Positions 2,778-16,708 of a DNA stretch of 27,667 bases are shown here, in pieces (within the stretch, counting starts at the first letter, position 1; each line of letters starts with the position of its first letter). The position numbers and the translations under genes are program-made. The stretch is from a virus: positions 1 to 27,667 of the IMG/VR virus record IMGVR_UViG_3300008261_000153, one strand, 5' to 3'. The notes under the pieces were generated by a model, which was not told the origin of the DNA, ran no database searches, and saw only the letters and a list, made by a program, of their open reading frames with translations.

Positions 2778-2794
2778 TGTCCTCTCCTCTGCTC

Positions 2795-3595: not shown

Positions 3596-3606
3596 GTCCG
3601 CCTATC

Positions 3607-4173: not shown

Positions 4174-4790
4174 TCGCTGATCTTGTAAGAGTTGGTGCGG
4201 CACGTCACGCGGAACACCATTCCGTTCACCTCTTTGATCTGCGCGTCAATGGCGCCGATCAGACCACACGCCTTGCAGACCGCCACGACGTCATCAGCCA
4301 TTGCCTTCACGTCAAAGTTGTTCGGGTGCTTGGCGCGCGCCTCCTGCTCGTCCAGTCCGTCCTCGACCATTGCGATCTGTCCGTAGGTGATGTTGTTGCG
4401 CTCCCAGCCGAGGACGTGTCCGAGTAGGTCTTGGCTCAGGATGCTGCTGCTCCGCATTGCTTGGTCAATCCACGTCAACCTGCCCTCGACTGTCTTCTCG
4501 CGGCTGATCGCCGGTCGCGGCGCCTTCTTGGTCTCCTGCACGGCGCGCACGCGATAGAGGTCCACGGTGCGCCAGCCGTCCTCTGCCACCTCACCGAACA
4601 GGTTGATGAACCGCTGCTCAACGTCCTCTGGGACGCGGCGCTCTTCCGCGACGTAGGCGTAGGCGCTGCGCCGGCTGATCTTCAGCGCCTCGGCAAGTGC
4701 CTCGATGCGGCCGCGCGTGGATTTATGCGGGAAGGCGTGCTTGGCGACAATCCTCATCCAGTCACCACGAATGCTGCGGACTGTGAACAC
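4170..4790 (-). CDS. Predicted HTH DNA-binding protein, function unknown
   Basis: This is a 206-residue protein. Residues about 26-48 (GRIEALAEALKISRRSAYAYV) read as a helix-turn-helix, preceded by basic residues and followed by a mixed helical region. Near the C-terminus is a CKAC pair and a later TCRTNS, possibly a degenerate metal site. The start is GTG at 4790, with GGGAGGG 4 nt upstream. It heads the methyltransferase pair and lies 18 nt after the RlpA-like gene. It is one of two proteins in the genome that could act as a transcription factor. I do not recognise the family. Confidence 0.55.
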   Translation of the reverse strand: MFTVRSIRGDWMRIVAKHAFPHKSTRGRIEALAEALKISRRSAYAYVAEERRVPEDVEQRFINLFGEVAEDGWRTVDLYRVRAVQETKKAPRPAISREKTVEGRLTWIDQAMRSSSILSQDLLGHVLGWERNNITYGQIAMVEDGLDEQEARAKHPNNFDVKAMADDVVAVCKACGLIGAIDAQIKEVNGMVFRVTCRTNSYKISE

Positions 4791-4807
4791 TTGCCCTCCC
4801 TCTCCTG

Positions 4808-5281
4808 CTACGGCAGGACTGTGACTCTAACCCTTTGCACTCCACTATTCAAGTCCACGCCGAGCGCGGTGAACGCGGCAGGGCTGAGGTCCACCAGCTT
4901 CTCGTTGTTCTTCTGTCCTCGGCATTGGCACCAGTCCACCACCCACGCCACGATTGCCTTTCCGTTCTTCAGATTCTCCACGATGATGCGGTACGGCTTC
5001 TTGCCCCAACGGAAGTCCTTGATTTTGCGAAGGGCTGGACCCGCAGCTGCGTAGAAGAGCGTCGGCTTGTCGCCTCGCGTGTACCAGGCGTTGTTCTTGG
5101 TCGCGTCAAACCACGTTGCCTTGCCCTTGACGGACAGGACGAGCGACCTAGCGACAGGCGCTGGCTCTGGCTTGAACGAATCCCGCAGCGGTGCGTCAGG
5201 CGCGCTTGGGAAGGCGAAGATGATCGCAGTGGTGATCAGCATCGTGAGCGCCGAGAGCCAGACGCTCCGACTCGTGATCAC
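4808..5281 (-). CDS. RlpA-like double-psi beta-barrel protein, membrane-anchored or secreted
   Basis: This is a 157-residue protein with an N-terminal hydrophobic segment (about residues 7-25, ending FAFPSAPDAP). It could be a signal peptide or anchor; no lipobox Cys is present. The rest fits an RlpA/DPBB barrel: GKATWFDATKNNAWY, then YRIIVENLKNGKAIVAWVVD, then LVDLSPAAFTALG, and a final strand VRVTVL. The usual DRGP turn is replaced by DWCQCRG, which adds a CxC. RlpA proteins bind or cleave peptidoglycan glycan strands. Here a role in host wall remodelling is possible, yet the gene sits in the early/middle module rather than the lysis cassette. GTGA overlap with the upstream nuclease gene fixes the start. 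Confidence 0.7.
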   Translation of the reverse strand: MITSRSVWLSALTMLITTAIIFAFPSAPDAPLRDSFKPEPAPVARSLVLSVKGKATWFDATKNNAWYTRGDKPTLFYAAAGPALRKIKDFRWGKKPYRIIVENLKNGKAIVAWVVDWCQCRGQKNNEKLVDLSPAAFTALGVDLNSGVQRVRVTVLP

Positions 5282-5652
5282 TCAGGCGGCTCCGCTGCTA
5301 CGAACCAATCGCAGAAGTCGTCAAGGTCAAGGATGATCACGGCGCGACGACGGCCGCCGCCAACGCCTGGACTGTCACCGATCACCAAGCCGCGCAGCTG
5401 GTCGCTCTTGACCGGCACAGTCTGCAACCAATCCCACTGGCGCTCGCTGAAGCTTCCGCCCACCTTGCACTGCACGGCGAGCCAATCGTTCGCAACGTCT
5501 TGCTTGCCGCCGAACTGTCCGACGCGCTGACCGAGTAGGCGCTTGGCAACCTCGCGCTCGAATGCGTTCCCACGAGCGCGGCTGTTCTTACCCTTGCGGC
5601 TCTTGGCTGGGTCAATCATCTTCTTGGTGGCTTCGTCCTTGAAGTAGCCCAT
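5278..5652 (-). CDS. PD-(D/E)XK-like nuclease, Holliday-junction-resolvase type
   Basis: This is a 124-residue protein with a Lys/Arg-rich start and GNAFEREVAKRLLGQRVGQF at about residues 28-47. Then comes a D near 52 and AVQCKVGGSFS near 59-69. The layout (E in helix 1, D, then x-x-K) matches the Hjc-like PD-(D/E)XK family, with Gln in place of the usual Glu before CK. The C-terminal half (AVIILDLDDFCDWF) is a hydrophobic strand-helix. It would resolve or trim branched DNA before packaging. It starts at a TGATG junction and ends at a GTGA junction, so it is translationally coupled on both sides. Confidence 0.65.
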   Translation of the reverse strand: MGYFKDEATKKMIDPAKSRKGKNSRARGNAFEREVAKRLLGQRVGQFGGKQDVANDWLAVQCKVGGSFSERQWDWLQTVPVKSDQLRGLVIGDSPGVGGGRRRAVIILDLDDFCDWFVAAEPPE

Positions 5653-5939
5653 CAGATGAGCCTCGCCAAGACTGCAGAGCCGCCGTCGCTCAGCGTGAAG
5701 CGTGCGACGTCAATCTCCATCACGCCGTGCTTGATCAGGTCGGCGTTGGTCTTGCGGTTGCCGATGCCTTCGTACAGAAAGAACCAGCCGTCAGGCGCAA
5801 TGGCATCGGCGTAGCGGATGGAGAGGTTGCACCAAGCGCGACCAGAGAAACCAGGCTCCTCGCACCACGCATCAGGACCCTCCTGCACGGCGATCACGTT
5901 GTCGTCGAGGAACGGAGTCTTCCGCTCGATGCGGGTCAC
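5652..5939 (-). CDS. Hypothetical protein (95 aa)
   Basis: I do not recognise this protein. GTG at 5939 overlaps the upstream stop (GTGA) and has AGGAG 9 nt upstream, so the much longer open frame that overlaps its neighbour is not used. The sequence (MTRIERKTPFLDDN at the start, then GFSGRAWCNLSIRYADAIAPDGWFFLYEGIG) contains several aromatic and acidic residues. DLIKHGVMEIDVARF near the C-terminus could be a winged-helix-like segment. It lies in the chain of early genes between a zinc-binding microprotein and a nuclease. Confidence 0.6.
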   Translation of the reverse strand: MTRIERKTPFLDDNVIAVQEGPDAWCEEPGFSGRAWCNLSIRYADAIAPDGWFFLYEGIGNRKTNADLIKHGVMEIDVARFTLSDGGSAVLARLI

Positions 5940-6121
5940 TTCACGCAGCTCCTGTGATACCAAGCGAAGCGAGTGTTGCGCTTGTTGGCGACGAAGGTGA
6001 TCACCTTGACCCGCCACGACTCCTTGAGCGTGTTCAGGTCGCCACTGCACGCGCCGCAGCTCGTCGCTGCGAACACAGGCTCCTTGCGAGGTCCACCTCG
6101 CTGCGCTTTTACTGCTGCCAT
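5936..6121 (-). CDS. Hypothetical small protein with possible zinc site (61 aa)
   Basis: This is a basic 61-residue protein. TSCGAC lies near residues 21-26 and WYHRSC near 54-59, a CxxC plus HxxC arrangement that could hold one zinc ion. The start ATG lies inside the end of the upstream membrane-protein gene, in another frame (13-nt overlap). Its stop overlaps the next GTG. The compact size and zinc-like ligands suggest a nucleic-acid or protein adaptor; the function is unknown. Confidence 0.6.
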   Translation of the reverse strand: MAAVKAQRGGPRKEPVFAATSCGACSGDLNTLKESWRVKVITFVANKRNTRFAWYHRSCVK

Positions 6122-6285
6122 AGCACGCTCCTTACGATCCAGATGATCGTGGCGAACGCCAAGATGATGAAGATGGTACCCGCTGCCGCACCGCCACGCT
6201 TAGCCGCTACAGGCAGCGACAGACTGACAATGATCACGAAGAAGAGTTGCAGCCCAGCGATGACCAGACCAACCGTATCCCACAC
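6109..6285 (-). CDS. Small membrane protein with two TM segments (58 aa)
   Basis: The frame runs from GTG at 6285, one nucleotide after the upstream stop, to TAA at 6109. The product has two strongly hydrophobic stretches: about residues 5-27 (GLVIAGLQLFFVIIVSLSL) and 36-54 (GTIFIILAFATIIWIV). They are separated by a short basic turn AAKRGGA, giving a helical hairpin. Position in the early module argues against a main holin. A membrane role such as superinfection exclusion or host modulation is possible. The frame fills the gap between two coupled genes exactly, which supports it. Confidence 0.6.
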   Translation of the reverse strand: MWDTVGLVIAGLQLFFVIIVSLSLPVAAKRGGAAAGTIFIILAFATIIWIVRSVLWQQ

Positions 6286-6286
6286 G

Positions 6287-6481
6287 TCAGTGACCGATGT
6301 TGCTCAGGCTGCGAACGAGTTTCTCTACTGCCTTCTCAACCGCCTCCTGGACCGTCGCGCCGGTGAACGTGATCTCGCCGTCCTCATCGTCAAGGATGAC
6401 GTGCCATTGGTCGCCGTCCTTGACGGCCTCGGCGAATCGGTAGCCAGCCTGTGCTGCAAGAATCTCCAGCTCCTTGAACAT
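6287..6481 (-). CDS. Hypothetical protein (64 aa)
   Basis: This is a small acidic protein, MFKELEILAAQAGYRFAEAV at the start, then a beta-like segment DQWHVILDDEDGEITFTG and a terminal helix VQEAVEKAVEKLVRSL. The start overlaps the dNMP kinase stop by one base (TAATG), so the two are coupled. The alpha-beta-beta-alpha pattern is typical of small phage accessory proteins; I do not recognise a family. Confidence 0.6.
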   Translation of the reverse strand: MFKELEILAAQAGYRFAEAVKDGDQWHVILDDEDGEITFTGATVQEAVEKAVEKLVRSLSNIGH

Positions 6482-7038
6482 TAGACCTCCTCCATCTTGT
6501 CGGTGATGACGCGATAGGCGTCCTCAGGCGACAGGCTTGTCGTGTCCACCGTAAGGTCTGCCCTGCTGTCTGTCCAGCCCCTTTCCGTGATGTCAGCGGC
6601 TCCGTACAGGTTGCCGCCCACCCTCTCGCGCCTGACCTCCTCCGAGGCTGTCAGCCGAACGATGAAGATGTCGGGGTCAATGGCTCGCAGGTACTGCACC
6701 TCGGCATCTAGGCGCACGTCATCCACGACCACGCCAAAGCCGATCCGCTTCAGCTCGAAGTAGTCCTTGCGCCAGACCCTGAGCCAGAAGTGCGTGTCCA
6801 CGCCTCGCATTGCCGCACCAATGTCTTGCAGCAGTTCCCTGCCGGTCAGGGTGCTGTCGCCGAAGTTGCGGCTCACGGTCAGGACCTCGCTCTTGCCGAG
6901 GTCGTTGTACGCCATCGCCGCAATGTGCTTGATGGCGTCCGCGATGCCGTGCCGACGGTACTCACGATGCTCCACGAAGAGCGACGCGATGGTGGACTTG
7001 CCGCTCCCCTGCGGCCCAAGAATCGCCAGCGACCTCAC
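6481..7038 (-). CDS. Deoxynucleoside monophosphate kinase-like P-loop protein
   Basis: This is a 185-residue P-loop kinase with MRSLAILGPQGSGKST at the N-terminus (Walker A, residues 8-16). It continues with HGIADAIKHIAAM, GDSTLTGRELLQDIGAAMR (lid/substrate region) and GVVVDDVRLDAEVQYL (Walker B-like strand), ending in IFIVRLTASEEVRRERVGG. The closest known type is the T4 gp1-like deoxynucleotide monophosphate kinase, which feeds dNTP synthesis during phage replication. GTG at 7038 overlaps the preceding stop (GTGA). It sits with the recombination and replication genes, as expected for a DNA-metabolism enzyme. Confidence 0.82.
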   Translation of the reverse strand: MRSLAILGPQGSGKSTIASLFVEHREYRRHGIADAIKHIAAMAYNDLGKSEVLTVSRNFGDSTLTGRELLQDIGAAMRGVDTHFWLRVWRKDYFELKRIGFGVVVDDVRLDAEVQYLRAIDPDIFIVRLTASEEVRRERVGGNLYGAADITERGWTDSRADLTVDTTSLSPEDAYRVITDKMEEV

Positions 7039-7439
7039 GTCAAGATCACAGCATCTGCGACCGCGAGGAACCCGATCACCTTTGGCACGAGTTCAGTGCG
7101 CTCGAATGCAGTCGTCGCAGGAAGTTCCTTGACCTCCCAGTGCGGCTCACGCACGCGATACAGGTCCCAAGCGTAGATGCCTTGCGGCGTCCAGTTGATG
7201 TACGCCGGTCGCGCTGACCGCTTGCCAGCCTCCTCAATGAGCCAGTCGTACTTCGCCTGCTCAATGAGCAGCTCAGGGTAGTGCGTCTCTCGGCACTTCA
7301 ACTCCAGGATGTAGTCAATGCGACCTATCGGCGTCTCGTAGAACGCCGTGCAGTCCCAACGGCTGAAGCCGTACTCCATCCGCTCAAGGTTTGGAACAGT
7401 CGTTCTCGCCAAGTGCGTGAGCAGTTGCTCCTCGTTCAT
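7035..7439 (-). CDS. PD-(D/E)XK-like nuclease fold protein (134 aa)
   Basis: This is a 134-residue protein with the segment IDYILELKCRETHYPELLIEQAKYDWLIEEA at about residues 41-71 (described here by its key parts). It has D at 42, E-L-K at 46-48, then a helix with Q and K. This is the D-x(n)-E-x-K core of PD-(D/E)XK enzymes. A later strand PAYINWTPQGIYAWDLY fits the fold's fourth strand. It overlaps both neighbours by 4 nt, and GGGAGG precedes the ATG. A role in DNA processing is likely; specificity is not readable. Confidence 0.55.
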   Translation of the reverse strand: MNEEQLLTHLARTTVPNLERMEYGFSRWDCTAFYETPIGRIDYILELKCRETHYPELLIEQAKYDWLIEEAGKRSARPAYINWTPQGIYAWDLYRVREPHWEVKELPATTAFERTELVPKVIGFLAVADAVILT

Positions 7440-7873
7440 CGTCGTCCTCCCTTCGCAATAATCTCGCCAATACTCATCACGCCGTTAGTAAGAGTCTTCT
7501 CTTCTCTACTCTTCTCTACTCTACTCTTCTCTAGCGCGTGACCAAACCGTGACTCAGCCACTTTTCCCGCACGAGCGCGTTGCTGACGTTGAGCCGACGT
7601 CGCGTCCACTTGCCATCGAGACCAGTTCGAGACAGCCACGACACCAGCCTGAGACACCTCTAGCAGCCCCTCGGCAATGAGTCGAGCCACTGCCCGATTG
7701 AGTCGCGGCCCGATGACTGCGGCGAGGTGTTGCCGGTCGCGGAACTCGCCACCCTTCCGCATCTCCTTTGCGATCTCCAGAATCGTGACGAACGCACGGA
7801 ACTGCGTGTCAGTGAGACTGGCGATGATCGCGTCCTTGTGCGCTCCTGCTGACCACTTGATCCAAAGATTCAT
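7436..7873 (-). CDS. Predicted replication initiator / replisome organiser-like protein
   Basis: This is a 145-residue protein. Its first 80 residues form a winged-helix-like domain: SLTDTQFRAFVTILEIAKEM, then RDRQHLAAVIGPRLNRAVARLIAEGLLEV, then a VVAVSNW wing. A basic linker AQRQQRARAGKVAESRFG follows. Next is a charged repeat EKSRVEKSREEK, encoded by a purine-rich tandem repeat, and a short tail. The N-terminus resembles phage initiator/DnaD-helper proteins that open the origin inside their own gene. A strong AGGAGGAGG lies 7 nt before the ATG at 7873. Its position next to the Rad52-like and YqaJ genes supports a replication role, which is inferred. Confidence 0.6.
   Translation of the reverse strand: MNLWIKWSAGAHKDAIIASLTDTQFRAFVTILEIAKEMRKGGEFRDRQHLAAVIGPRLNRAVARLIAEGLLEVSQAGVVAVSNWSRWQVDATSAQRQQRARAGKVAESRFGHALEKSRVEKSREEKTLTNGVMSIGEIIAKGGRR
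7495..7533 (-). repeat. Purine-rich tandem repeat inside the initiator-like gene
   Basis: On the plus strand the unit CTTCTCTACT occurs twice in a row (7501-7520) and is flanked by partial copies (CTTCT before, CTACTCTTCTCTA after). The minus strand is thus an AG-rich iterated tract. It encodes EKSRVEKSREEK. Strong strand asymmetry and periodicity inside an initiator gene make it a candidate replication origin or iteron region, though a simple low-complexity coding tract is also possible. Confidence 0.6.
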
Positions 7874-7897
7874 TGTGTCCTCCTCCTTCTCTGCCGC

Positions 7898-8620
7898 TTA
7901 GAACGGCAAGTCTTCTAGGTTCTGCGTGTCTTCTGGCACGAGCTTCGGCTTCGCTGGTGCAGGCGCCTGCGACGCGATGAACTTCTGGCTCGGCTTGTCC
8001 TTGCAGTACGAGCCGTCTGGGGTCTTGTGGCTCGCCGCCCAGAATGCGTTGTACGGCTTGCCGCTTGCCTTGCTCACGCCGCCTGGCTTCAAGGTCCAGA
8101 GTTCGCCGTGGCTGCACGTCTCGTCGCCGACGTTCTCGGCAAAGAGCATTGCCGCCTTCGCAGCGATTATTGCGTCGCTGGTAGCGTCGTCAGAATCAAC
8201 GGAGAGGGGTGTAGGAGCCACGGAGAGGCGCGGAACCCTCGCAAGTGGTACTGGGACACCCTTTTCTGGCGAATAGAGGCTCCTGCCCACTCCTAGCTGC
8301 GCCGCGCACCTGCGGAGCGCATCACTGGCCGCAGACTTCAGCGGCTCGTCATCCTGAGCAGAGTTCGGGTAGCCGAAGTCCTGTCGGATCGTGGTCTTCC
8401 CACCGATCACGACGGCGAGTGAGCCGTGGACGACGTTTCGTGCGCCGTCTGCGACCTTCACCTCGAACTGCCAACCCTCAATGCCGAGGACGTCATCCAG
8501 CCGCTGCGCGACTGCTCGCGCGTCGGCGTAGGTGAACGTCATCCCTGCTCGCCCTGGTCGGTGCTTCAGGTCCTTCTCCTCGAATGGCGCGCAGAGCGCC
8601 TTGCTGATGTCGTTGCTCAT
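7898..8620 (-). CDS. Rad52-like ssDNA annealing protein (Sak type) with SSB-like tail
   Basis: This is a 240-residue recombination mediator. The N-terminal half fits the Rad52/22 superfamily: FTYADARAVAQRLDDVLG near residues 29-46, then the beta-hairpin segment WQFEVKV...GSLAVVIG, and SAASDALRRCAAQLGVGRSLY near 97-116. The linker leads to a Cys/His module (ETCSHGELWTL, a YNAFW box and a later DGSYC). The C-terminus is acidic with a terminal LEDLPF, like the interaction tip of bacterial SSB. It overlaps the YqaJ exonuclease by ATGA, giving a two-gene Red-like recombination system. AlphaFold-type comparison would test the fold; the pairing makes the assignment strong. Confidence 0.85.
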   Translation of the reverse strand: MSNDISKALCAPFEEKDLKHRPGRAGMTFTYADARAVAQRLDDVLGIEGWQFEVKVADGARNVVHGSLAVVIGGKTTIRQDFGYPNSAQDDEPLKSAASDALRRCAAQLGVGRSLYSPEKGVPVPLARVPRLSVAPTPLSVDSDDATSDAIIAAKAAMLFAENVGDETCSHGELWTLKPGGVSKASGKPYNAFWAASHKTPDGSYCKDKPSQKFIASQAPAPAKPKLVPEDTQNLEDLPF

Positions 8621-9552
8621 AGTCCCTCCTCTGTCCTGAACTTGAAGACTCGCGCGCCGGGAACTTCCCGAGTCGCGGCTTCTACAACCTTCGGGTCAAT
8701 CTTTGTGGCGACCTCCTTCCAGTCCGTCTTGAGCGACGGCTTGTTCTGCTTCCACGTTGCCGACCAGCCTTGACCTGCGATCCCAGCCTTCTCGCCGATG
8801 GACTCCTTGAGACTGATCGCAAGGTTCTGGAGTTCTTGGTCAAGCAACTTGGACTCGTACTGCTTCTCGGCGTAGAGCGCCGCAAGCCTGTCCAGAGAAG
8901 TGTCAGCCTGCGCCCACTCCTCGCTGGTCTGCGGTACCACCTGCGCCAGCGCGTCGCTGTCCTCGCCCTGCAAGGTTGGCGGCGTGTCTGTTGCGAGTAG
9001 GTTGCGGAACTCCACTGCCTTCGCGTAGAGCTGCGTCTGATAGTTCACGTCAGCCTCAACCCGCTCGATGCGGAAGACCAAACCACCGAGCAGGACTGCC
9101 ACGTCGCACCACGGTGCGCCGGTGACGAACATCTGCCACTGCACTTGCGCCACCACCTCTGGCGGCACTGGGTGCAGGCTCCAGCGCGGTGAGGTGCTGG
9201 TCTTGATCTCCACCAAGCCCTCCTCGCCGACGATGGTGCGGTCGAGTGACGCCATCACCCACGGCAGTTCCTTGAGTCGGACGATGCCGTTGCTGCGGCG
9301 CAACTCGCGGCCAGTCTCCATCTCGTAGAACTCTGCGACTGCGTTCTCCAACAGGATGCCGCGCACCGCTGCCGGTCCAACTGGGTGAGGCTGGTACTTC
9401 CCTAGCTTCTCCGCCCAAAGTTGGAAGGGAGTTTTGTATGGATTCAGCCCCGCGATGACCGACACGTCGGTCGCCGTGATGCCGTCAGCCCGAAGTGCGA
9501 ACCACTCAGGACTGCGCTGCTCTGCCTTGACGAACTCGTATTGCTTGCTCAC
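8617..9552 (-). CDS. YqaJ-like viral recombinase / 5'-3' exonuclease
   Basis: This is a 311-residue PD-(D/E)XK exonuclease of the YqaJ/lambda-exonuclease group. The opening EQRSPEWFALRADGITATD (residues 11-29) carries the SxxW...R signature. GILLENAVAEFY holds the E near 69, and D104, E115 and K117 (LDRT...LVEIKTS) form the catalytic D-ExK set. VVAQVQWQM near 133-141 is the conserved Gln motif. GTG at 9552 has GGAGGG 4 nt upstream and overlaps the previous stop (GTGA), so the longer open frame upstream is not used. It resects DNA for the Rad52-like partner encoded immediately downstream. The C-terminal third is helical (coiled-coil-like). Confidence 0.92.
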   Translation of the reverse strand: MSKQYEFVKAEQRSPEWFALRADGITATDVSVIAGLNPYKTPFQLWAEKLGKYQPHPVGPAAVRGILLENAVAEFYEMETGRELRRSNGIVRLKELPWVMASLDRTIVGEEGLVEIKTSTSPRWSLHPVPPEVVAQVQWQMFVTGAPWCDVAVLLGGLVFRIERVEADVNYQTQLYAKAVEFRNLLATDTPPTLQGEDSDALAQVVPQTSEEWAQADTSLDRLAALYAEKQYESKLLDQELQNLAISLKESIGEKAGIAGQGWSATWKQNKPSLKTDWKEVATKIDPKVVEAATREVPGARVFKFRTEEGL

Positions 9553-9737
9553 TTGCCCTCCTTCTTTCTGTCCTTCTTGGCGAACCCTTCGCCCTTGTAA
9601 ACCACCGCCGCTGGCGAATAGACCATCCGCATCCAGCGGCCGCACTTCTCGCAGCGCGGGTTGTAGACGTTCTGGATTGAATGCGTGTGTTCCTCCCGAT
9701 GTCCGCAGTCGCCGCAGCGGTACTCGTAAACTGGCAT
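9549..9737 (-). CDS. FmdB-like zinc ribbon protein
   Basis: This is a 62-residue protein, MPVYEYRCGDCGH at the start, then PRCEKCGRWMRMVYSPAAVVYKGEGF and a Lys-rich tail. The two CxxC pairs and the VVYKGEGF ending match the FmdB/CxxC_CxxC_SSSS regulatory-protein family. The start is the ATG at 9737, which overlaps the upstream TAA (TAATG); a longer GTG form would add four residues before the conserved MPxYEY. Phage copies are common and presumed to bind nucleic acid or protein. It precedes the exonuclease gene in a coupled chain. Confidence 0.82.
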   Translation of the reverse strand: MPVYEYRCGDCGHREEHTHSIQNVYNPRCEKCGRWMRMVYSPAAVVYKGEGFAKKDRKKEGK

Positions 9738-9898
9738 TAGCCAAGCCACGCAAACAGGAACACGATGAACGCAAAGCCGTAGATGCCGATGGCAATGTCC
9801 ATCAGCGCCTGCGATCTGCGCTTCTGCTCATCAAGCAGTGTCGTGCGGATTGCCACTCGCTTGTAGACCAGTGGCTGCGTCTTTCGGTTCAGCCTCAT
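9737..9898 (-). CDS. Small membrane protein, one C-terminal TM (53 aa)
   Basis: ATG at 9898 to TAA at 9737. The N-terminal 32 residues are basic and soluble (MRLNRKTQPLVYKRVAIRT, then LLDEQKRRSQAL). They are followed by a hydrophobic segment MDIAIGIYGFAFIVFLFAWLG that ends the protein. This is a tail-anchored or N-in/C-out single-pass topology. It overlaps the preceding microprotein by ATGA and the following gene by TAATG, so its ends are both set by coupling. Function unknown; a host-membrane effector is possible. Confidence 0.6.
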   Translation of the reverse strand: MRLNRKTQPLVYKRVAIRTTLLDEQKRRSQALMDIAIGIYGFAFIVFLFAWLG

Positions 9899-9981
9899 CG
9901 CATTGACCCCAGTGCCAAGAGCAGCACCATTGCTGCAACGAACGATACGACTGCGAGTGTGTCCAAGATCATTGTCTTCAC
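9895..9981 (-). CDS. Membrane microprotein (28 aa)
   Basis: GTG at 9981 overlaps the upstream TGA (GTGA) and has GGAGG 7 nt before it. The frame ends at a TGA that overlaps the next ATG. The product MKTMILDTLAVVSFVAAMVL continues as LLALGSMR, almost entirely one transmembrane helix. The ribosome-binding site and exact coupling on both sides support translation of so short a frame. A start at the internal ATG (9972) is the alternative. No function can be assigned. Confidence 0.5.
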   Translation of the reverse strand: MKTMILDTLAVVSFVAAMVLLLALGSMR

Positions 9982-10208
9982 TTTGCTGCCTCCTTCAACT
10001 GCTCAAGGGTGACTTCGCCGGCAGAGATGCGAGCGATCTCGCTCCACGCGATTGGCGCGTGTTCTGCAACTGGCTTCTCATTGCGCTTCGGACGAACGCC
10101 CAACTCAAAGATGAGCGATGGCAGTTCGGTCGAGTTAGGATCGCCGACCACGAAGACGGCGTGACCCTTGCGCTCGCTGCGGCTGACCCAGCCGTGTGTC
10201 GCGCTCAT
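9978..10208 (-). CDS. Hypothetical protein (76 aa)
   Basis: I do not recognise this protein. It begins at an ATGA overlap with the upstream gene. The first half has HAVFVVGDPNSTELPSLIFELG, and the second half a helical, acidic segment AWSEIARISAGEVTLEQLKEAAK. No membrane segment or metal site is seen. It is the second gene of the transcript that begins at the promoter near 10486-10515. Confidence 0.6.
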   Translation of the reverse strand: MSATHGWVSRSERKGHAVFVVGDPNSTELPSLIFELGVRPKRNEKPVAEHAPIAWSEIARISAGEVTLEQLKEAAK

Positions 10209-10432
10209 CAGCGCACCGCCACTGACTCGGCCGCGACAGTCTCAGCCAGTGCGTACTGGATGAAGTCGTGGCGCAGCTGAAGATTCGTGATCCGAACCTT
10301 GACGCTGCCGGTGTCGGCGACGGTCATCCCGCCGACCTTGTGAATGCGGACGACGATGCCGCGTGGAAGGAAGTGACCGTGCTTCGCTGGCACGCTCTTC
10401 ATTGCGACGTACTTTCCGAGGTCCTTGATCAT
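10208..10432 (-). CDS. Hypothetical early protein (74 aa), first gene after the promoter
   Basis: This is a small basic beta-rich protein: MIKDLGKYVAMKSVPAKHGH, then FLPRGIVVRIHKVGGMTVADTG and VKVRITNLQLRHDFIQYAL. The pattern suggests a small beta-barrel. AGGAGG sits 5 nt before ATG at 10432, right after a nested hairpin. It is the first gene downstream of the best promoter in the window, so it is probably expressed early and strongly. Family unknown. Confidence 0.65.
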   Translation of the reverse strand: MIKDLGKYVAMKSVPAKHGHFLPRGIVVRIHKVGGMTVADTGSVKVRITNLQLRHDFIQYALAETVAAESVAVR

Positions 10433-10443
10433 TTTGTCCTCCT

Positions 10444-10480
10444 CAGCAGGATCAGCCTTCTGGCTGGTTCCTCCCTGCTG
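10444..10480 (-). promoter_or_regulatory. Structured 5' leader: nested hairpin just before the SD
   Basis: In transcript order CAGCAGG (10480-10474) pairs perfectly with CCTGCTG (10450-10444). Inside it, CAGCC (10466-10462) pairs with GGCTG (10457-10453) around an AGAA loop. The structure begins at about the position predicted for the 5' end of the RNA (about 6-7 nt after the -10) and ends directly before AGGAGG. It may protect the mRNA 5' end or tune translation; the stems are exact, the role is inferred. Confidence 0.6.
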
Positions 10481-10485
10481 TCACA

Positions 10486-10515
10486 ATCCTAGAACGTGAC
10501 GTCACGGCTTGTCAA
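10486..10515 (-). promoter_or_regulatory. Sigma-70-type promoter with palindromic operator in the spacer
   Basis: On the minus strand TTGACA (10515-10510) is followed after 18 nt by TAGGAT (10491-10486). The -35 is a perfect consensus and the -10 keeps TAnnnT. The spacer contains a perfect 12-bp palindrome, CGTGACGTCACG (10506-10495), exactly where a repressor or activator would interfere with RNA polymerase. It lies between a terminator and a gene with a strong ribosome-binding site. Confidence 0.72.
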
Positions 10516-10523
10516 GGGGGTAG

Positions 10524-10555
10524 CCTCCCAGACTGGAGGAGGTCAGTCTGGGAGG
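10524..10555 (-). terminator. Strong hairpin terminator overlapping a stop codon
   Basis: CCTCCCAGACTG (10524-10535) and CAGTCTGGGAGG (10544-10555) form a perfect 12-bp stem with an 8-nt loop. The TGA stop of the upstream gene lies at the loop edge. The minus-strand sequence after the stem is CTACCCCCTT, with only a weak T-run, so it may act as a rho-independent-like or processing hairpin. It separates the metallophosphoesterase operon from the promoter just downstream. Confidence 0.7.
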
Positions 10556-10773
10556 TCGCTGGCATAGCCAGCGGCGTCATCGTCCTCATCGAGCAGCTCT
10601 AGAACCACCTCTAGGCACGCTCGGCAGATAGCGTAGGACAGGACTGCAGAATAGCCGACCGTGAGGCTGACTTCCTGTTCGGCAAACCTCCACACCCTGC
10701 GAGTCTCCCCGCACGGCGTGCAGGCTCCTATGTCCTGCGGCCTCGGTGCCGGCGGACCTGCAAGGAACGGCAC
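10543..10773 (-). CDS. Small zinc-ribbon-like protein (76 aa)
   Basis: GTG at 10773 overlaps the metallophosphoesterase stop (TAGTG). The protein has two CxxC pairs, ACTPCGE near residues 18-24 and AICRACLE near 48-55, enough for one zinc ribbon. An acidic tail EVVLELLDEDDDAAGYASDLPD follows. No clear Shine-Dalgarno is present, so translation probably depends on coupling to the gene before it. The stop lies in the terminator hairpin. Nucleic-acid binding or protein adaptor function is possible. Confidence 0.65.
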   Translation of the reverse strand: MPFLAGPPAPRPQDIGACTPCGETRRVWRFAEQEVSLTVGYSAVLSYAICRACLEVVLELLDEDDDAAGYASDLPD

Positions 10774-11801
10774 TAGCGCAAGCGGATTAGGTACTCGGCT
10801 GAGACCTCTCCATCGCCGTCAAAGAACATCAGCCACTGCCCTGGCTCGCCAGACGCGCCGACGACCTCCTGAGCGAAGCGGTTACTGCTCTCAAGCGACG
10901 GACTGCACCACGTCGTGATCTTGCCGTCGGCAAGGACGAGTCGCGCAGGCTGATGCCAGTGTCCGAACCAGAGATAGTCAAACGGCGCGACGCTCAAGCG
11001 CCAGCCGCTCGCCTTCTTTGCGACGCCGTACCACGGCATCCCAAGTCCACCCCTGAACTGATCGCCGTGAACGATCATCCCGATCTTGCCGCCTGGCAAG
11101 TCGAGCGTGTCGTACCAGTGCCGACCGCCAACGGTGAGGCTCTCCTTCCAGCTCACGCGCTTCTCGCTCAACACGAGTGAGCGCGCAATGTTGTAAAGAA
11201 TCGCATCGCTGTTGCTTTCTGGCGAGTGATCCGAGTAGCGCCCCAAGCGTCCGTGGTTGCCGATTGCGCCGTAGACCTCGACCTGCGGGAAGAGTGCGGC
11301 CATCGCCCTGACGAACTGCGCCAGCATCTCCGCGCCTCGGAAGATTTGGACGTACAGACCGCCAGCCTCAACTTCGTAGGCTTGTCCTGGGAAGATGTTG
11401 CCGTCTGACTCCACGAGGTCGCCAGTGAGCAGAATCTTCACCGTGTCCACTGGGTGATCCTTGCGCTGAATCTCGACCACCCGCTGCACCTTCTCGGCGA
11501 GCAGGTTCAGCCGCTTGGCTGCGGTGTCAATGTCGTAGTCCACGCTCTTCTTGCCAAGCTGCCAGTCGCTCAGCTGCACGACGGCAACCTCGCGCTTGCC
11601 CTTGCGCTTGTCTGGCTTCGGTGCTGGAACGGCTGGAATCTTCATCCCGACCGCCGCATCCTTCGCGGCGCGGTAGACCGCCTCCACGAGTTCTTCGGTC
11701 TGTTGATCCTTCTTCGCAAGTGCGCGCAACGCACGCCGGTGCGCCGACTTCAGTTCGTTGAGTTCGTCCTCACGCTGAAACTCGATCAGGTCTTCTGGCA
11801 T
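10773..11801 (-). CDS. Calcineurin-like metallophosphoesterase
   Basis: This is a 342-residue two-metal phosphoesterase. A helical N-terminus (to about residue 70) precedes the catalytic domain. Its motifs are VVQLSDWQLG at about 74-83, LLTGDLVES at 124-132, GAIGNHGRLG at 178-187, IVHGDQF at 243-249 and FGHWHQPA at 279-286. The first motif has DxQ where most family members have DxH, and the third has GNHG rather than GNHD/E. ATG at 11801 has GGAG 8 nt upstream, replacing a longer open frame. Phage members are often thought to act as nucleases or phosphodiesterases in DNA metabolism; the substrate is not shown here. Confidence 0.85.
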   Translation of the reverse strand: MPEDLIEFQREDELNELKSAHRRALRALAKKDQQTEELVEAVYRAAKDAAVGMKIPAVPAPKPDKRKGKREVAVVQLSDWQLGKKSVDYDIDTAAKRLNLLAEKVQRVVEIQRKDHPVDTVKILLTGDLVESDGNIFPGQAYEVEAGGLYVQIFRGAEMLAQFVRAMAALFPQVEVYGAIGNHGRLGRYSDHSPESNSDAILYNIARSLVLSEKRVSWKESLTVGGRHWYDTLDLPGGKIGMIVHGDQFRGGLGMPWYGVAKKASGWRLSVAPFDYLWFGHWHQPARLVLADGKITTWCSPSLESSNRFAQEVVGASGEPGQWLMFFDGDGEVSAEYLIRLR

Positions 11802-12019
11802 TTGCAGTCTCCTCTCCTGTGTCGCTGGATGTTCTGCTGCGCCCAGTGCTGGTTGCGAATCTCGCACCACTTCTGGATTGCCTTCGCCGTGATCTTCGCG
11901 GCTGCGAGTGCCTTGTCGAGCGATTGCCGATCAGCCTCGCTTATGTCAAGCAACTGATAGCCGCAGAGTGGCCCTTTGTAGCCACCCTGCAGCGTCAGAA
12001 ACTCGTCTAGGTCCTCCAT
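11786..12019 (-). CDS. Small HTH-type DNA-binding protein (77 aa)
   Basis: This protein starts MEDLDEFLTLQGGYKGPLCG and has a helical body, SEADRQSLDKALAAAKITAKAIQKWCEIRNQHW, where a turn before KAIQKWCEIR suggests a helix-turn-helix. It ends in IQRHRRGDCKCQ. The basic HRRGDCKC ending is familiar from small phage proteins found at this position. AGGAGG lies 5 nt before the ATG. It is the first gene after the lysis block and overlaps the metallophosphoesterase start by 16 nt. It could regulate the palindromic operator at 10495-10506 or assist packaging; both are inference. Confidence 0.6.
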   Translation of the reverse strand: MEDLDEFLTLQGGYKGPLCGYQLLDISEADRQSLDKALAAAKITAKAIQKWCEIRNQHWAQQNIQRHRRGDCKCQKT

Positions 12020-12034
12020 TGCAACCTCCTACTT

Positions 12035-12090
12035 GCGGCGCGACTACACGCCGCTCTGCCGAGAGTGAAGTCTCCTCAGGCTTGTGTCAA
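12035..12090 (-). promoter_or_regulatory. Possible promoter (TTGACA) and leader hairpin before the early operon
   Basis: The 75-nt gap after the holin gene contains a perfect -35 TTGACA (12090-12085). The best -10 at 17 nt spacing is poor (CACTCT). A perfect 6-bp hairpin GCGGCG/CGCCGC with an 8-nt loop (12054-12035) lies just before AGGAGG of the next gene. Its position at the lysis/early boundary fits a promoter, but the weak -10 keeps confidence low. Confidence 0.35.
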
Positions 12091-12094
12091 GACC

Positions 12095-12334
12095 TTACTT
12101 CTTGCCGCCGATGCCGTAGTCGCTCTGGCTTGGGTCGAGCGCCTTGACCAGTACGGCCAAGCCTGACGCCAGACCAGCCGACAGGACGGTTCGGAAGTCG
12201 CCGCCAGTGATGTCGAGCAGCGGGATGCCGAGTCCGAGTGCGACTGAGATTGAGACCGTCAGGAAGGTGCGAACTGCGTCAAGCACCATCTCGTCAAGTT
12301 TGCTCGCGTCAAGAATCTTCTGAACCTTGTTCAT
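12095..12334 (-). CDS. Holin candidate
   Basis: This is a 79-residue protein. An amphipathic N-terminus (MNKVQKILDASKLDEMVLDA) leads to a hydrophobic helix, TFLTVSISVALGLGIPLLDI. After a short GGDFRT turn comes a second helix, VLSAGLASGLAVLVKAL, and the tail DPSQSDYGIGGKK. Length, two TM helices and the basic tail fit phage holins. ATG at 12334 has AAGGAAAG close upstream; a GTG 15 nt earlier overlaps the lysin stop and is the alternative. It follows the lysin candidate directly. Confidence 0.72.
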   Translation of the reverse strand: MNKVQKILDASKLDEMVLDAVRTFLTVSISVALGLGIPLLDITGGDFRTVLSAGLASGLAVLVKALDPSQSDYGIGGKK

Positions 12335-12345
12335 TGTCTTTCCTT

Positions 12346-12963
12346 TCACTTCTTCGTCACGATGACGATGTGGCTTGCAGGCGAGCCTGGCTTGCCTGAA
12401 GCGATTGCCTTGAGTTCAGCCTCCGTGACCGGCACGGCGTACTGTTCCTTCGGTACACGCTCATCAAACGTAGGGTCAGCGAAGACCAGCGTCTGCGCCT
12501 CTGAATCATAGCCTGCGCTGGTGAGGTGTCCGTACCCTGCGGCGATCACCTTCGGGTCCTTCTTCTGCCAGTAGGACGCCCAGTTGCGATGCCATTTTGA
12601 CAGCGCCTGCTTTGGGTAGCCGATCGGTGCCTGCACCCAGACGATGAGTGCGGCGCCAGCCTTCGCAGCTGCAACCGCCTCGGCGAAGGTATCAGCAGGC
12701 TTTGCCTTGCAGCCCAGTTCGCGGACGGTCTTCATCATCTCGCTCAGGCTTGAGCCGTTGTCGCTGACCCCTTGCTTCTCCTTGAAGCCAGTGGCGCGCT
12801 CCTTTGCCGCTACGCCGTCGGCTGCGCTGAAGTCAGGCGCGTAGCCGTTCACGAAGGCCGCAGCCGCAGCCGCGCTCGATGGTCCGCAATCGTCAAGGAT
12901 TGCGCCGACCTTCTTCTGCGCCTCGGCGTCAGAGTAGAGCTGCGACTTGATGCGGTACTTCAT
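12346..12963 (-). CDS. C39-like papain-fold peptidase, endolysin candidate
   Basis: This is a 205-residue protein. LDDCGPSSAAAAAAF (Cys26) matches the CGPxS nucleophile motif of C39-type papain-fold peptidases. AAGYGHLTSAGYD supplies His146, and LVFADPTFDE supplies Asp163 in the usual order. The region between is helical (KAGAALIVWVQAPIGY before the His strand). ATG at 12963 overlaps the previous stop (ATGA). Its place beside the holin candidate, with no other recognisable murein hydrolase in the cassette, makes it the likely endolysin, cutting peptide bonds of the wall. A virion-processing or bacteriocin-like protease is the alternative. Confidence 0.72.
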   Translation of the reverse strand: MKYRIKSQLYSDAEAQKKVGAILDDCGPSSAAAAAAFVNGYAPDFSAADGVAAKERATGFKEKQGVSDNGSSLSEMMKTVRELGCKAKPADTFAEAVAAAKAGAALIVWVQAPIGYPKQALSKWHRNWASYWQKKDPKVIAAGYGHLTSAGYDSEAQTLVFADPTFDERVPKEQYAVPVTEAELKAIASGKPGSPASHIVIVTKK

Positions 12964-13214
12964 TCGCCGATCTCTTCCTTGATGTGCGCGGCAAGTGCAA
13001 GACCAGCCGTCTGAAAGTCGAGTGCAGCACTGATCGGATGACCACAGGTGCAGCCCTCGCTGTAGTCGTTGCCATTGTCGGCGCGCTTCCAGAGCGTGCC
13101 GCCGAACGCGCTTGCGTCCTCGCTTGGCACAAGTGCCACCCACTCGCCTGGCGCGGTGTCAATGCGCGTCCAGCCCTGCTCCTTGAGTTCCCTGCGGTGA
13201 TCTTCGGTTGTCAT
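12960..13214 (-). CDS. Hypothetical protein in the lysis cassette (84 aa)
   Basis: ATG at 13214 overlaps the upstream stop (ATGA). The product starts [20 protein letters not shown], continues GEWVALVPSEDASAFGGTLWKRAD and has CTCGHP near residue 55, with a C-terminal helix AGLALAAHIKEEIGE. It has no membrane segment. It is coupled to the lysin candidate and could be a lysis accessory factor. I do not recognise a family. Confidence 0.55.
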   Translation of the reverse strand: MTTEDHRRELKEQGWTRIDTAPGEWVALVPSEDASAFGGTLWKRADNGNDYSEGCTCGHPISAALDFQTAGLALAAHIKEEIGE

Positions 13215-13414
13215 TCTTTCCACCTCAAGTATCCTGTTGCGATCCAGACGATTGTCATCAGGATGAACAGCGTTGCCATTGTGCTTTGCGTCTGACCCTC
13301 TGGCAGTACGACCACCGCGAAGAGCAGACCGAGGATCGTCCACGAGCCTCCGACTAGATCGTTGATGATGTTCCTAAGCACGGCGACCACCCTTTCGGCT
13401 TGGCGTATTTCCAT
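13211..13414 (-). CDS. Two-TM small protein, second holin-like candidate
   Basis: This is a 67-residue protein from ATG at 13414. It has a helical start, [20 protein letters not shown], then TM1 ([14 protein letters not shown]), a short polar loop with EGQTQST, TM2 ([18 protein letters not shown]) and a RWKE end. AGGAGG is only 2 nt from this ATG. A GTG near 13382 with a better-spaced GGGTGG is a plausible alternative start. It overlaps the end of the secreted proline-rich protein. The topology fits a holin or holin partner. Confidence 0.6.
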
Positions 13415-14501
13415 TGCCTCCTGCTGGTCCGCCGCCGCCAATGTTAGCAGCCGCTCGTGCGGCATTTGACGCTGCGGCAGCCACACTTGCAACTTGGCTG
13501 GCAATGATTGCGACGGCAACCGGCTGCGCTTCTTCCTTCTCAATCGGGTCAAGGTCTTTGCCGATCTCTGTGATGGCCGCTATGTTGGCGAACACTTCGC
13601 CGACCGCCTCAACCGCAGCTCCTACAACTGGCAGAGCGGGTTCGGGTTCAGGAGTAGGTAAAGGAGTGGGATCAGGAGATACGGAAGGAGATGGCGGAAC
13701 TTCTGTTGGTGCAGGCGTTGGCTCTGGCGTTGGTTCTGGCGTTGGTTCATTGGTCACCTCAGGACTTGGCTCCTCCGTTGGTGTTGGTTCTGGGGTTGGT
13801 TCGGGTGTTGGTTCTGGAGTTGGCTCAGGAGTCGGCTGCGGCGTTGGCTCAGGCGTTCGGGTTGGCGTAGGTTCAGGGGTAGGCGTCGGCGTCGGCTCTA
13901 CAGAAGGCTCTGGCGTAGGGGTAGGAGCCACGCTAGGGCTGGGTGAAGGCTCTTCTGGTGTCTGGGTAGGGGTCGGCTCAGGAGTCGGTAGAACGGACGG
14001 AATCGCGGTAGGGACAACCGTCGGCGGGGTCGGGTCAAGGAGCAGCGCAGCCGTCGTCAGGAGTTGGTAGTGACCGCCGACAGGGAAGGGGTCCTGCGGC
14101 CACATACACGATCCGTCGCGGCAGGTGAAGCGACCGGCACGCAGCCGATAGACGCCAGCCTCCAGCTGCACGGTGATGAATGAGTGATAGGACTGACCAT
14201 TGGTGCGAGGGTCGTCGTCATTGGAAGTTAGCAGCCCGCCGTCAGCGGCATACAGCCAGAGTGCAGAGTCCGTGAAGTTGCCGCCTTGCTGCGGCGCGGC
14301 GCACCAGAAGGCTGTGGTGTTGTCGCAGAGATCAGTCTCAGCGGTGAAGGTAGACGGCTGCTCGATCACGACGAAGTAGTCGCCAGTCTGGGTCACGAGC
14401 GTGCTGTAGGGATACTCGGTGCCGTCGTAGCCCTCGGCTCCGCGAACGACAGCGAACGGCACGAAGGAGACCCAAAGGAGCAGGAGCGCGGCGAGCCTCA
14501 C
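13374..14501 (-). CDS. Secreted proline/threonine-rich protein
   Basis: This is a 375-residue protein with a clear signal peptide ([21 protein letters not shown], cleavage likely near residue 21). An N-terminal domain (to about 155) is rich in aromatics: [39 protein letters not shown], with Cys pairs at about 59/67 and 127/132 that could form disulfides. This resembles bacterial PPC-like secreted beta domains. Residues 171-288 are a PTPEP-type linker. The C-terminal third is Ala-rich and hydrophobic ([19 protein letters not shown], then [16 protein letters not shown]). ATGA overlap with the coiled-coil gene upstream. Location in the lysis cassette suggests a wall-spanning or envelope-disrupting role. 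Confidence 0.7.
13638..13991 (-). repeat. Tandem PTPEP-encoding repeats
   Basis: These are imperfect 6- to 18-nt tandem units encoding PTPEPTPEP-like sequence (residues 171-288 of the secreted protein). On the plus strand they read as GGTGTTGGTTCTGG-type units. Such tracts expand and contract by slippage, so the linker length probably varies between related genomes and may be misassembled from short reads. Confidence 0.8.
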
Positions 14502-14686
14502 TTGCCGGCTTGCGATTGGAAGTACGCCAGAAGCGTCCCGATTCCTCCTACGCCAAGCAGCGCGCCAAGCGCCTTCAAGACGGTCAAGCCGCCTTTCATC
14601 TGGTCAATCTCGGACTGAAGTCGGTCAATCTTTGCTGACTGCGCGTCTAGTCGGTCAATGATCGCATCAACTTGGGAGCGGGTCAT
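14498..14686 (-). CDS. Coiled-coil plus TM small protein, XhlA-like
   Basis: This is a 62-residue protein. Residues 1-31 form a heptad-like helix ([20 protein letters not shown], then [10 protein letters not shown]), followed by one TM segment ([23 protein letters not shown]) and a short tail. The order coiled coil then TM is that of XhlA-type lysis proteins. GGAG lies 7 nt before the ATG. It overlaps the tail gene upstream by 20 nt and the secreted protein by ATGA, marking the start of the lysis cassette. Confidence 0.65.
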
Positions 14687-14957
14687 CAGGTGGCTCCGTG
14701 GCTTCAGGCTCAGGCAGAACCTCGGACTCGCCTTCTACGATTTCGGGCGTTGGCTCTGGCTGTGGCGGCTCTGTGAATACGCCGTCAGTATACGCCCCGC
14801 CGATCCACGCACTCGTGCCTTGCTCCACCTCAATGATTGCAGTCGCGCCGAACAGAGTGGCGTAGTCGCGCAGGAACTGCGCTTGCTGCGCTGGGCTGAG
14901 CACGCCAGCAATGACCTGCACCACGATGCCATCTTGGTTGATGAAGGCGTATTTCAT
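14667..14957 (-). CDS. Small tail-end protein (96 aa)
   Basis: The start ATG at 14957 overlaps the fibre stop (TAATG), so the longer open frame is not used. The protein opens MKYAFINQDGIVVQVIAGVL and has GTSAWIGGAYTDGVFTEPPQ near residues 55-75. This layout (short beta strands, then a G-x-Y-x-DGxFxxPP turn) is shared by small proteins encoded next to tail-fibre genes. A Pro/Glu-rich tail follows. A role as fibre chaperone or attachment factor is likely by position. Confidence 0.6.
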   Translation of the reverse strand: MKYAFINQDGIVVQVIAGVLSPAQQAQFLRDYATLFGATAIIEVEQGTSAWIGGAYTDGVFTEPPQPEPTPEIVEGESEVLPEPEATEPPDDPLPS

Positions 14958-16708
14958 TATGCGATGTACGCCACAATGAGGTAGCCGTCGCCACCATTGC
15001 CGCCGTTGCCTCCGATTGCGGTTCCCGATGAGTTGGTGTACGCCGTGGTTCCAGCGGCTGAGGTCGCGCTGTTGCCCCATAGCGCCTTGCCGCCACCACC
15101 GCCACCTGACCCGCTATTTGCTGAAGCGTTGCCACCGTTGCCACCTGCGGCAGAGATTCCTGTCCCCGCGGTCGTGCTAATCCAGAAACAACCGCCGCCG
15201 CCACCGCCCCCTGCTGTCTGCACCGCACTTCCTGCGTAATAAGTGGCCGTTCCAGTCGGAAGCGTGCTTCCGACATAGGAATAGCCACCGCCGGTGTCAA
15301 TACGATTTCCACCGCCGTTGCCGCCCATACAAAGCCCGATGCCAGCAGGTCCTGCCGTCCCTCCCAAAGTCCTCACCCCACCGCGCGCCGTGATTTTGCC
15401 ACCAACCGTTGCGCCATCGGCTGTTCCGTTTGCCCCATTACTGCCAGCAACAGCAAATGAAGCCTGGTACGGCAACGATGTGAATCCACTTGTCGTTAGC
15501 GTTGAGTTTGATAGATAACTTGCGGTGCCTGTCGTGGTAGCGGTGGAAGTCACCACCGTACTTGGGAACGGCACGGTCGTTGTGACGGTTCCAGATGCAG
15601 CCGCACCGCCAGAAGCGGCTGTAGTAGCGCAGACTAAATACGAGCCAAAGGTCGTGTTGCCACCGATACCACCCGCCGCTCCATCAACGTTTATCGTTGA
15701 AGTGGTGACGCCGACCGCTTTTGTTGCAGTGCCTCCCGCACCTCCCGCACCGCCTGCGCCAATGCCAACGCTGACCGTAGAAACATCTCCGACGTACAGG
15801 TCGCGGAGAAGGCCATAGGCTCCCGGCTGACCTCCATTGCTTGGGCTTTCCGAGATACCTGCGCGAGTGATTCTGCCCTCGCCTCCAACGCCGCCGTTGC
15901 CGCCAGAATAACCAGCCACTGCCACTAGATACTCAACGCCTGTAGGTCGCGTCCAAGTTCCGCTCGACGTGAACGCTTCGGTCACGAGGAAAGATTGCGA
16001 GCCTCCGCCGCCGGGCGTACTGGTTGCCAAAATCAGACTTTTGATCGTTGCCTTCGCAGAACCAGTGACCGCCGCTGTTGCCGTCATCTTGAAAGAAAGG
16101 TCAACATACTGCGCGGCTGAGTTGATCGCCGAGCCGCCTGGAGTCGTCGTTCCAGAGATGCTTGTCCACGTGCCGGTATCAAGTGCCGTGCCAATGACCG
16201 CCGTGCTGAGCGCGGTATCGGTTGCGTCGTAATAAATCGCCGTGAGTGTCAGATTCCACTGAGATGCAGTCCCGCCAGCCGTGCCGCTCTTACTGATGAC
16301 CGAGAGCGCCTTCTGGCGAAGCGCAAGATTGTCGTCCGTCAGCAGGTAGGAGCGCGTTGTCAGCGTTAGCGTTGAGTCGATCGCGGCAGTGCCAGGGTTC
16401 AACTCAATGCCATAAGTCAATGTCGTTTCGTCAAAAACCGACGTTGCAGTCATTTCGTCCTCGCTTGCATTGTCAATGCTCCAGAATGGCAACGGATTTG
16501 ATTGCTGCTCAATTGGCGAATCTGGAGATGGCGGCAAAAGATTGAAGTTTGGATTCGCGATCCCATAGAGCGCCTGTGCGATGGCAGAGGCACCTAGCGG
16601 CGAATCGCCAAATCCAGTGCTGCTACTAACCACAGCATTGCCGAGATCGTCAGTCACGCCAGTAATGGATTGAGAAATGATGTCTCTTGTCGATCCGACT
16701 TGGCTCAT
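14957..16708 (-). CDS. Tail fibre / receptor-binding protein with glycine-rich domain
   Basis: This is a 583-residue protein. Residues 1-40 look like a tail-attachment segment. About 95-235 is a beta-rich carbohydrate-binding-like domain (LTLTTRSYLLTDDNLALRQK and later SAAQYVDLSFKMTATAAVTG). The segment FTSSGTWTRPTGVEYLVAVA (about 246-265) is the hinge often seen in phage adhesins. After it, the chain is packed with GGNGG, GGAGGAGG, GGGGGGGG and GGNGGNGG runs to the final GDGYLIVAYIA. Such polyglycine sandwiches form receptor-binding tips in some phages. It overlaps both neighbours by 4 nt or less. Confidence 0.82.
   Translation of the reverse strand: MSQVGSTRDIISQSITGVTDDLGNAVVSSSTGFGDSPLGASAIAQALYGIANPNFNLLPPSPDSPIEQQSNPLPFWSIDNASEDEMTATSVFDETTLTYGIELNPGTAAIDSTLTLTTRSYLLTDDNLALRQKALSVISKSGTAGGTASQWNLTLTAIYYDATDTALSTAVIGTALDTGTWTSISGTTTPGGSAINSAAQYVDLSFKMTATAAVTGSAKATIKSLILATSTPGGGGSQSFLVTEAFTSSGTWTRPTGVEYLVAVAGYSGGNGGVGGEGRITRAGISESPSNGGQPGAYGLLRDLYVGDVSTVSVGIGAGGAGGAGGTATKAVGVTTSTINVDGAAGGIGGNTTFGSYLVCATTAASGGAAASGTVTTTVPFPSTVVTSTATTTGTASYLSNSTLTTSGFTSLPYQASFAVAGSNGANGTADGATVGGKITARGGVRTLGGTAGPAGIGLCMGGNGGGNRIDTGGGYSYVGSTLPTGTATYYAGSAVQTAGGGGGGGCFWISTTAGTGISAAGGNGGNASANSGSGGGGGGKALWGNSATSAAGTTAYTNSSGTAIGGNGGNGGDGYLIVAYIA

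Follow-up and report, generated by a model that had tools for sequence, protein, structure and literature searches.

Does the promoter-like element at positions 10,486 to 10,515 of the viral record IMGVR_UViG_3300008261_000153 carry an operator, and what sort of regulator might act on it? The whole stretch of DNA that was analysed, referred to here as the window, is 27,667 nucleotides long. On its minus strand TTGACA (10515-10510), the palindrome CGTGACGTCACG (10506-10495) and TAGGAT (10491-10486) follow one another, and the 18-nt spacer between the hexamers reads AGC-CGTGACGTCACG-TTC with the palindrome at its centre, exactly the TTGACA-N18-TAGGAT arrangement described in an earlier sequence-only reading. 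The comparisons below point, with somewhat better than even probability, to an early promoter controlled by a dimeric or multimeric regulator, sequence-specific and probably a repressor, that would act on three half-sites. The element looks like the early-gene promoter of a large, abundant and uncultured phage group.

The promoter-like element and its palindrome in the window

The element has the form of a sigma-70-type promoter, with a −35 region of TTGACA, a −10 region of TAnnnT and a spacing within 16-18 nt, and it is conserved in relatives. A scan of positions 1-20000 placed it at the top of five promoter-like sites with 10 of 12 matches, 3.5 such sites being expected from shuffled sequence. 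The earlier claim that it is the strongest promoter in the window is thus borne out as the best sigma-70-like match within the scanned 1-20,000.

Perfect 12-bp palindromes numbered nine in the window against approximately 6.8 expected (27,667/4096), and CGTGACGTCACG with up to two mismatches showed no excess over chance there. As a perfect palindrome of this length is ordinary in the window, the case rests on position and conservation; the chance of one falling wholly within this spacer is about 0.2% (7 positions x 9/27667). The nine palindromes lend something to the view that CGTGACGTCACG is functionless, a chance feature of a promoter block conserved by descent, as does the near invariance of the flanking AGC in relatives.

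The cassette and its operator types in related phages

Searching for the 12-mer in relatives had been proposed earlier, and it is present in them: the pattern TTGACA-N3-CGTGACGTCACG-N3-TANNNT was matched in 39 IMG/VR contigs. Relaxing the flanks and hexamers added only two contigs from IMG/VR, both unrelated and of low GC, and a collection of 85,000 genomes gave only two matches to the promoter pattern, both unrelated and lacking the leader described below. Sequence comparison establishes a conserved cassette, found in the IMG/VR scans at a fixed genome position, once per contig and in approximately 60 distinct versions, and all aligned contigs of the 39 share the same neighbouring genes. It runs from the hairpin and the −35 through operator and −10 to leader and Shine-Dalgarno, behind which come a variable first gene and RecE. 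Common descent accounts for part of its conservation. The operators were sorted into types I, I', II, III and IV, and the features of the cassette are as follows:

10524-10555, minus strand: terminator-like hairpin upstream of the promoter, with a conserved loop ACCTCCTCC, a covarying stem and no U-tract
10510-10515, minus strand: −35 hexamer TTGACA, whose last base is A in 51 and G in 5 of 56 distinct type I/I' versions, the other five bases never varying among them
10501-10506, minus strand: half-site L, CGTGAC, left half of the palindrome and the most variable of the three half-sites, degenerate in type I' and lost in L171
10495-10500, minus strand: half-site R, GTCACG, right half of the palindrome, TCACG being invariant in 56 of 56 type I/I' versions, partly fixed by the search pattern and type definition
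10486-10491, minus strand: −10 hexamer TAGGAT, its middle three bases variable among relatives
10480-10485, minus strand: half-site D, TGTGAC, in the discriminator, retaining GTGA in approximately 55 of the 56 type I/I' versions and reading CGTT in all three of type II
10445-10479, minus strand: structured 5' leader RNA with outer stem AGCAGGG/CCTGCT, conserved GAGGAAC bulge and inner hairpin, supported by compensatory changes and a covariance model
10438-10444, minus strand: Shine-Dalgarno GAGGAGG of the first gene, recognised from sequence
10208-10432, minus strand: first gene behind the promoter, 74 aa, no assigned function, one of 24 unrelated families in this slot

Two half-sites, CGTGAC and GTCACG, lie in the spacer, and a third, [C/T]GTGAC, immediately precedes the predicted +1. 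With this third half-site in the discriminator, the 12-mer is only part of the site; the operator-like dyad of the sequence-only reading is conserved in related phages, and the site is larger than that reading had it. Half-site D forms a direct repeat with L at 21 bp, and an inverted repeat with R around the −10 with N9 between them. Across the 56 type I/I' versions the outer half-site bases are near invariant, variation being found inside the −10, in the 3-nt flank and at the central dinucleotide. Since the search pattern and type definition had fixed some of the counted positions beforehand, a scan leaving the spacer free is the fairer test of operator presence; with only hexamers and leader fixed, it returned no operator-less family member, the remaining matches being unrelated phages.

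The palindrome region in relatives reads CGTGATGTCACG, CGTGACATCACG, CGTTATGTCACG or CGTTTCGCAACG, or is a wholly different dyad. Type I' versions have CGTTAT or CGTTAC as their left half. In L171 the left half is gone, leaving GTCACG-N9-CGTGAC around the −10 with a spacer of 19. In type II (L152, L172 and L206) all three half-sites have changed jointly from CGTG to CGTT in three of three versions, R reading AACG together with the change in D (CGTTTC|GCAACG..CGTTAC, CGTTGC|GAAACG..CGTTGC and CGTTTC|GTAACG..CGTTAC). A search with the type II spacer and the downstream site left free found no family member without a matching downstream site. Type III was seen at ten loci among RecE relatives. Its dyads resemble TGTAC-N4-GTACA and overlap the −10, and in several of the ten the outer pair is itself variable, T-A or G-C. 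Type IV, also among RecE relatives, has the dyad GGGGGC-TATAGACT-GCCCC (GGGGGC-N8-GCCCC).

The locus therefore shows the marks of a dimer site, namely dyad half-sites that overlap the promoter, are conserved above their surroundings and carry symmetric linked substitutions, the latter in three type II versions from one branch. A functionless palindrome would leave unexplained that all three half-sites change together, that other dyads replace the palindrome at the same place and that the −10 interior and the central dinucleotide vary, and we regard it as improbable.

In a tree of the adjacent 10543 gene, L152, L172 and L206 fall in one branch, with L018, of type I, nested among them; the tree, which has few columns behind it, requires the operator label to change at least five times overall. 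Because type II is confined to one branch, the linked half-site change may represent one or two events. The RecE of L098, which has a type III operator, is 96% identical to that of the type I' phage L071, and such likeness alongside differing operators indicates that promoter modules are swapped between genomes.

The centring of the L-R palindrome on the 18-bp spacer would also suit an activator. A MerR-type activator would untwist an over-long spacer with a dyad at its centre. The spacers of MerR promoters measure 19-20 bp, however, and the 18 bp here are close to the optimum. Half-site D, which is kept, falls outside the spacer, the type III dyads overlap the −10 instead, and no MerR match was found among the scanned window proteins. 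Activation of the MerR type is judged highly improbable.

The leader RNA, the operon and the proposed mode of action

The predicted transcription start is the A at 10479. The RNA from this base onwards is predicted to fold, in all of types I, I', II and IV, into an outer stem that encloses an inner hairpin and a bulge rich in purines, mostly GAGGAAC. The first five stem pairs occur in five fully paired combinations (AGCAG/CTGCT, ATCAG/CTGAT, ATCGG/CCGAT, GTCGG/CCGAC and GTCAG/CTGAC) with double changes at three of five pairs, as counted directly, the 3' arms having been picked as the complement of the 5' arm and always lying at positions 29-31. Ten sequences of a single length class were used to build a covariance model, which recovered held-out members, including type IV (E 7.5e-5), with at most one match per genome and always at the promoter locus. 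The type III leaders of L154 and L155 fold alike by energy and were missed by the model. An Rfam scan gave no family at gathering score, with weak sub-threshold matches. The persistence of the fold across types I, II and IV indicates that the operator can change while the leader stays, and a covarying leader that begins at the predicted +1 is an independent sign that the promoter is real. A 5'-terminal stem protecting the mRNA is the simplest role for it and, judged from the sequence, probably the likeliest.

Almost all genes of the window lie on the minus strand, giving a unidirectional siphophage-like genome. Along the direction of transcription they run from portal, protease, major head protein, tape measure, tail genes and a C39-peptidase-like gene to 11786-12019, a calcineurin-like exonuclease, 10543-10773, the hairpin, the promoter and small genes, followed by a RecE-like exonuclease, a Rad52/Erf-like protein, replication initiation, dNMP kinase, a glycosyltransferase and TerL. 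The TerL gene lies in two parts at the ends of the window (1-1095 and 27410-27667, minus strand), and residues 366-455 (approximately 90 codons, 270 bp) are missing in comparison with a relative's intact TerL, which suggests that the record is a nearly complete, opened genome. A megablast search of the window against phage records gave no match. The nearest isolate by portal protein is Pontimonas phage phiPsal1 (39%), an actinobacterial phage, making an actinobacterial host likely; a pattern search of phiPsal1 found neither the palindrome nor a comparable promoter. The genes around the promoter are:

10773-11870, minus strand: calcineurin-like exonuclease (MPE) of the upstream operon, PHROG 284 exonuclease, with calcineurin-like relatives in phages
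10543-10773, minus strand: small Cys-rich gene (CxxC...CxxC) just upstream, used for the local tree
9978-10208, minus strand: small early gene, 76 aa, no assigned function
9549-9749, minus strand: small FmdB-like zinc-ribbon (Zn_ribbon_8) gene before RecE, present with all operator types
8617-9795, minus strand: RecE-like exonuclease (YqaJ) of the early operon, its true start probably inside the ORF
7898-8620, minus strand: Rad52/Erf-like annealing protein

The stem of the hairpin at 10524-10555 occurs in seven covarying combinations, and its constant loop ACCTCCTCC is complementary to a Shine-Dalgarno sequence; this strong upstream hairpin insulates the promoter. Behind 66 promoters the slot for the first gene holds 24 unrelated small-gene families, many of whose members end in the seam GCGGTGCGC-TGA-TGA (..KAVR*), overlapping the next start codon. 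Genes for early host takeover or counter-defence are likely to be found in this variable slot.

In the reading that we favour, a lytic-looking siphophage of actinophage-like character would use 10515-10486 as its main early promoter, read by the host primary sigma factor. The regulator would occupy the two spacer half-sites, CGTGAC and GTCACG, together with [C/T]GTGAC at −6 to −1. Binding to all three would cover the whole promoter and, as the sites lie between −35 and −10 and between −10 and +1, would most likely block RNA polymerase. The genes downstream are RecE-, Rad52- and replication-initiation-like, and a repressor here would tune or shut off such recombination and replication genes. 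The transcript would run from 10479, its folded leader pairing the 5' end of the mRNA while the Shine-Dalgarno stays free. Comparing the sequences brings out the conserved cassette, the joint half-site changes and the covariation of the leader; that the promoter is active, is bound by a protein, is regulated in this direction and works early is inferred.

Candidate regulators, known systems and a possible second promoter

Two helix-turn-helix candidates had been named earlier:

4170-4790, minus strand: candidate 1, joining an XRE-like N-terminal HTH to a C-terminal part that has a CxxC pair, and conserved whatever the operator type
11786-12019, minus strand: candidate 2, a small basic protein which does not track operator type

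The first looks like an HTH protein by fold, its N-terminal part being XRE-like with Z up to 7.8 (a common arrangement alone may explain such a Z) and one relative giving a weak HTH_3 match; the second has a low-confidence model (pLDDT 64) with no fold match. The predicted recognition helix of 4170-4790 (helix 3, RRSxYAYVxEERRVP) shows almost no variation among types I, II and IV; it is not an obvious source of operator specificity, and the protein was rejected as the determinant of operator type. Type I and type II operators alike are accompanied by versions of 11786-12019 that share approximately 90% of their sequence. The only type II-specific phage genes found were accessory or tail genes without type I homologues, and these were also set aside. 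No phage gene was found to co-segregate with operator type; as the comparison included a single full genome of type II and only a few of types III and IV, the exclusion of such tracking is weak.

The absence of a clear lysogeny repressor noted earlier extends to the 13 group records: integrase or resolvase was found in none of them (the window itself being short of about 270 bp of TerL), and HTH_3 exceeded the cut-off in none, one XRE-like fold being encoded 6 kb from the operator.

A phage protein is the stronger candidate for the regulator, with a probability we place somewhat short of even. It could be a shared small protein with few changed residues that silences early transcription late in infection, the operator types then resembling immunity types. 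Mycobacteriophage subclusters do have diverged operators with cognate repressors (PMC6550527), and an XRE-like protein is encoded here (4170-4790); yet its helix 3 hardly differs between types I, II and IV, and the FmdB-like, 11786 and 10543 homologues are similar in types I and II.

A host transcription factor, with operator type switching along with the host, is possible though we incline against it. No phage gene tracks operator type, no phage CI/integrase module was found in the 13 records, and the GTCAC/GTAAC half-sites resemble those of actinobacterial MtrA, whose sites are a GTCACAgcg direct repeat in mycobacteria and GTnAcC-n5-GTnAcn in Streptomyces (PMC13189361). The likeness to MtrA boxes is limited to the half-site GTCAC/GTnAC (PMC13189361). 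MtrA sites are direct repeats with 5-6 nt between, whereas the half-sites here form an inverted repeat and a 21-bp direct repeat and include no GTnAC direct repeat 5-6 nt apart. In addition, the arrangement is absent from host promoters among the 85,000 genomes, and L018 and L152 have closely related 10543 homologues and differ in operator type.

A phage early promoter with an operator is of a known kind, and the exchange of operators is unusual. Relatives of phage lambda (434) are heteroimmune and carry other operators; in lambda itself the CI/Cro operators overlap the early promoters PR and PL. The present locus shares operators over an early promoter and relatives with other operators, and differs in that a divergent repressor gene, an integrase and a second operator array were not found. 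In Cluster A mycobacteriophages (L5, D29) an operator overlaps the early lytic promoter Pleft and its consensus differs between relatives, and lytic D29 has lost its repressor and kept its operators (PMC6550527; PMC5712189). The overlap of operator and early promoter and the shifting consensus are shared with the present locus, but Cluster A sites are asymmetric, 13-14 bp long, bound by monomers and present in 20-30 copies per genome, as opposed to dyads with a third half-site, once per genome. No stoperator-like array was seen, there being one exact site per contig and no excess of sites with up to two mismatches in the window. Cluster K phages have SAS/ESAS elements, inverted repeats close upstream of gene starts with a subcluster-specific consensus, which are thought to bind protein and whose function is not known (PMC3203893). 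Inverted repeats near gene starts and a consensus changing between relatives recur here; the Cluster K elements are 17-bp repeats in 11-19 copies per genome, in contrast to the single copy, recognisable −35/−10 and folded leader of the present cassette. With one site per genome, dyads and no lysogeny module, the locus belongs to neither the Cluster A nor the Cluster K system.

For an uncultured phage group, the locus thereby marks out a probable early promoter and predicts where its transcript starts; it also adds a leader RNA that is conserved and an operator that comes in natural variants of specificity. A wider proposal, which we consider unlikely as a whole, is that phages without lysogeny genes would leave control of their sole early promoter to a regulator encoded elsewhere (a host factor or the repressor of a competing phage), escaping by operator exchange at a recombination seam while retaining the promoter, a new class of 5'-terminal leader RNA and a hypervariable early-gene slot. 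Operator exchange without a recognisable lysogeny module, if true, would offer a case in which selection on lytic phages by a regulator could be tested.

A second possible promoter, P2 (12090-12062, minus strand), was detected before gene 11786-12019 as TTGACA-N6-TGA-N7-TCA-NNNT at approximately 35 loci. Its inner bases vary, palindromic examples being TGAAT-CGT-ATTCA (L036) and TGAGC-CTC-GCTCA (L007), and the TGA-N7-TCA dyad itself does not differ between phages of types I, I' and II. In the P2 leader there is a strong hairpin (12054-12035) with a conserved GTAG in the loop region. As a guess, 4170-4790 might act at P2 instead. In the type III phages L109, L110 and L098 a dyad TGCCA-GACACT-TGGCA was seen by eye approximately 1.6 kb upstream, in the region corresponding to P2. 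It should also be noted that one 34-kb record of an apparently unrelated phage (L224 and L225) contains two copies of a promoter TTGACANNNCGTTAGGTAACG with a dyad at the same position.
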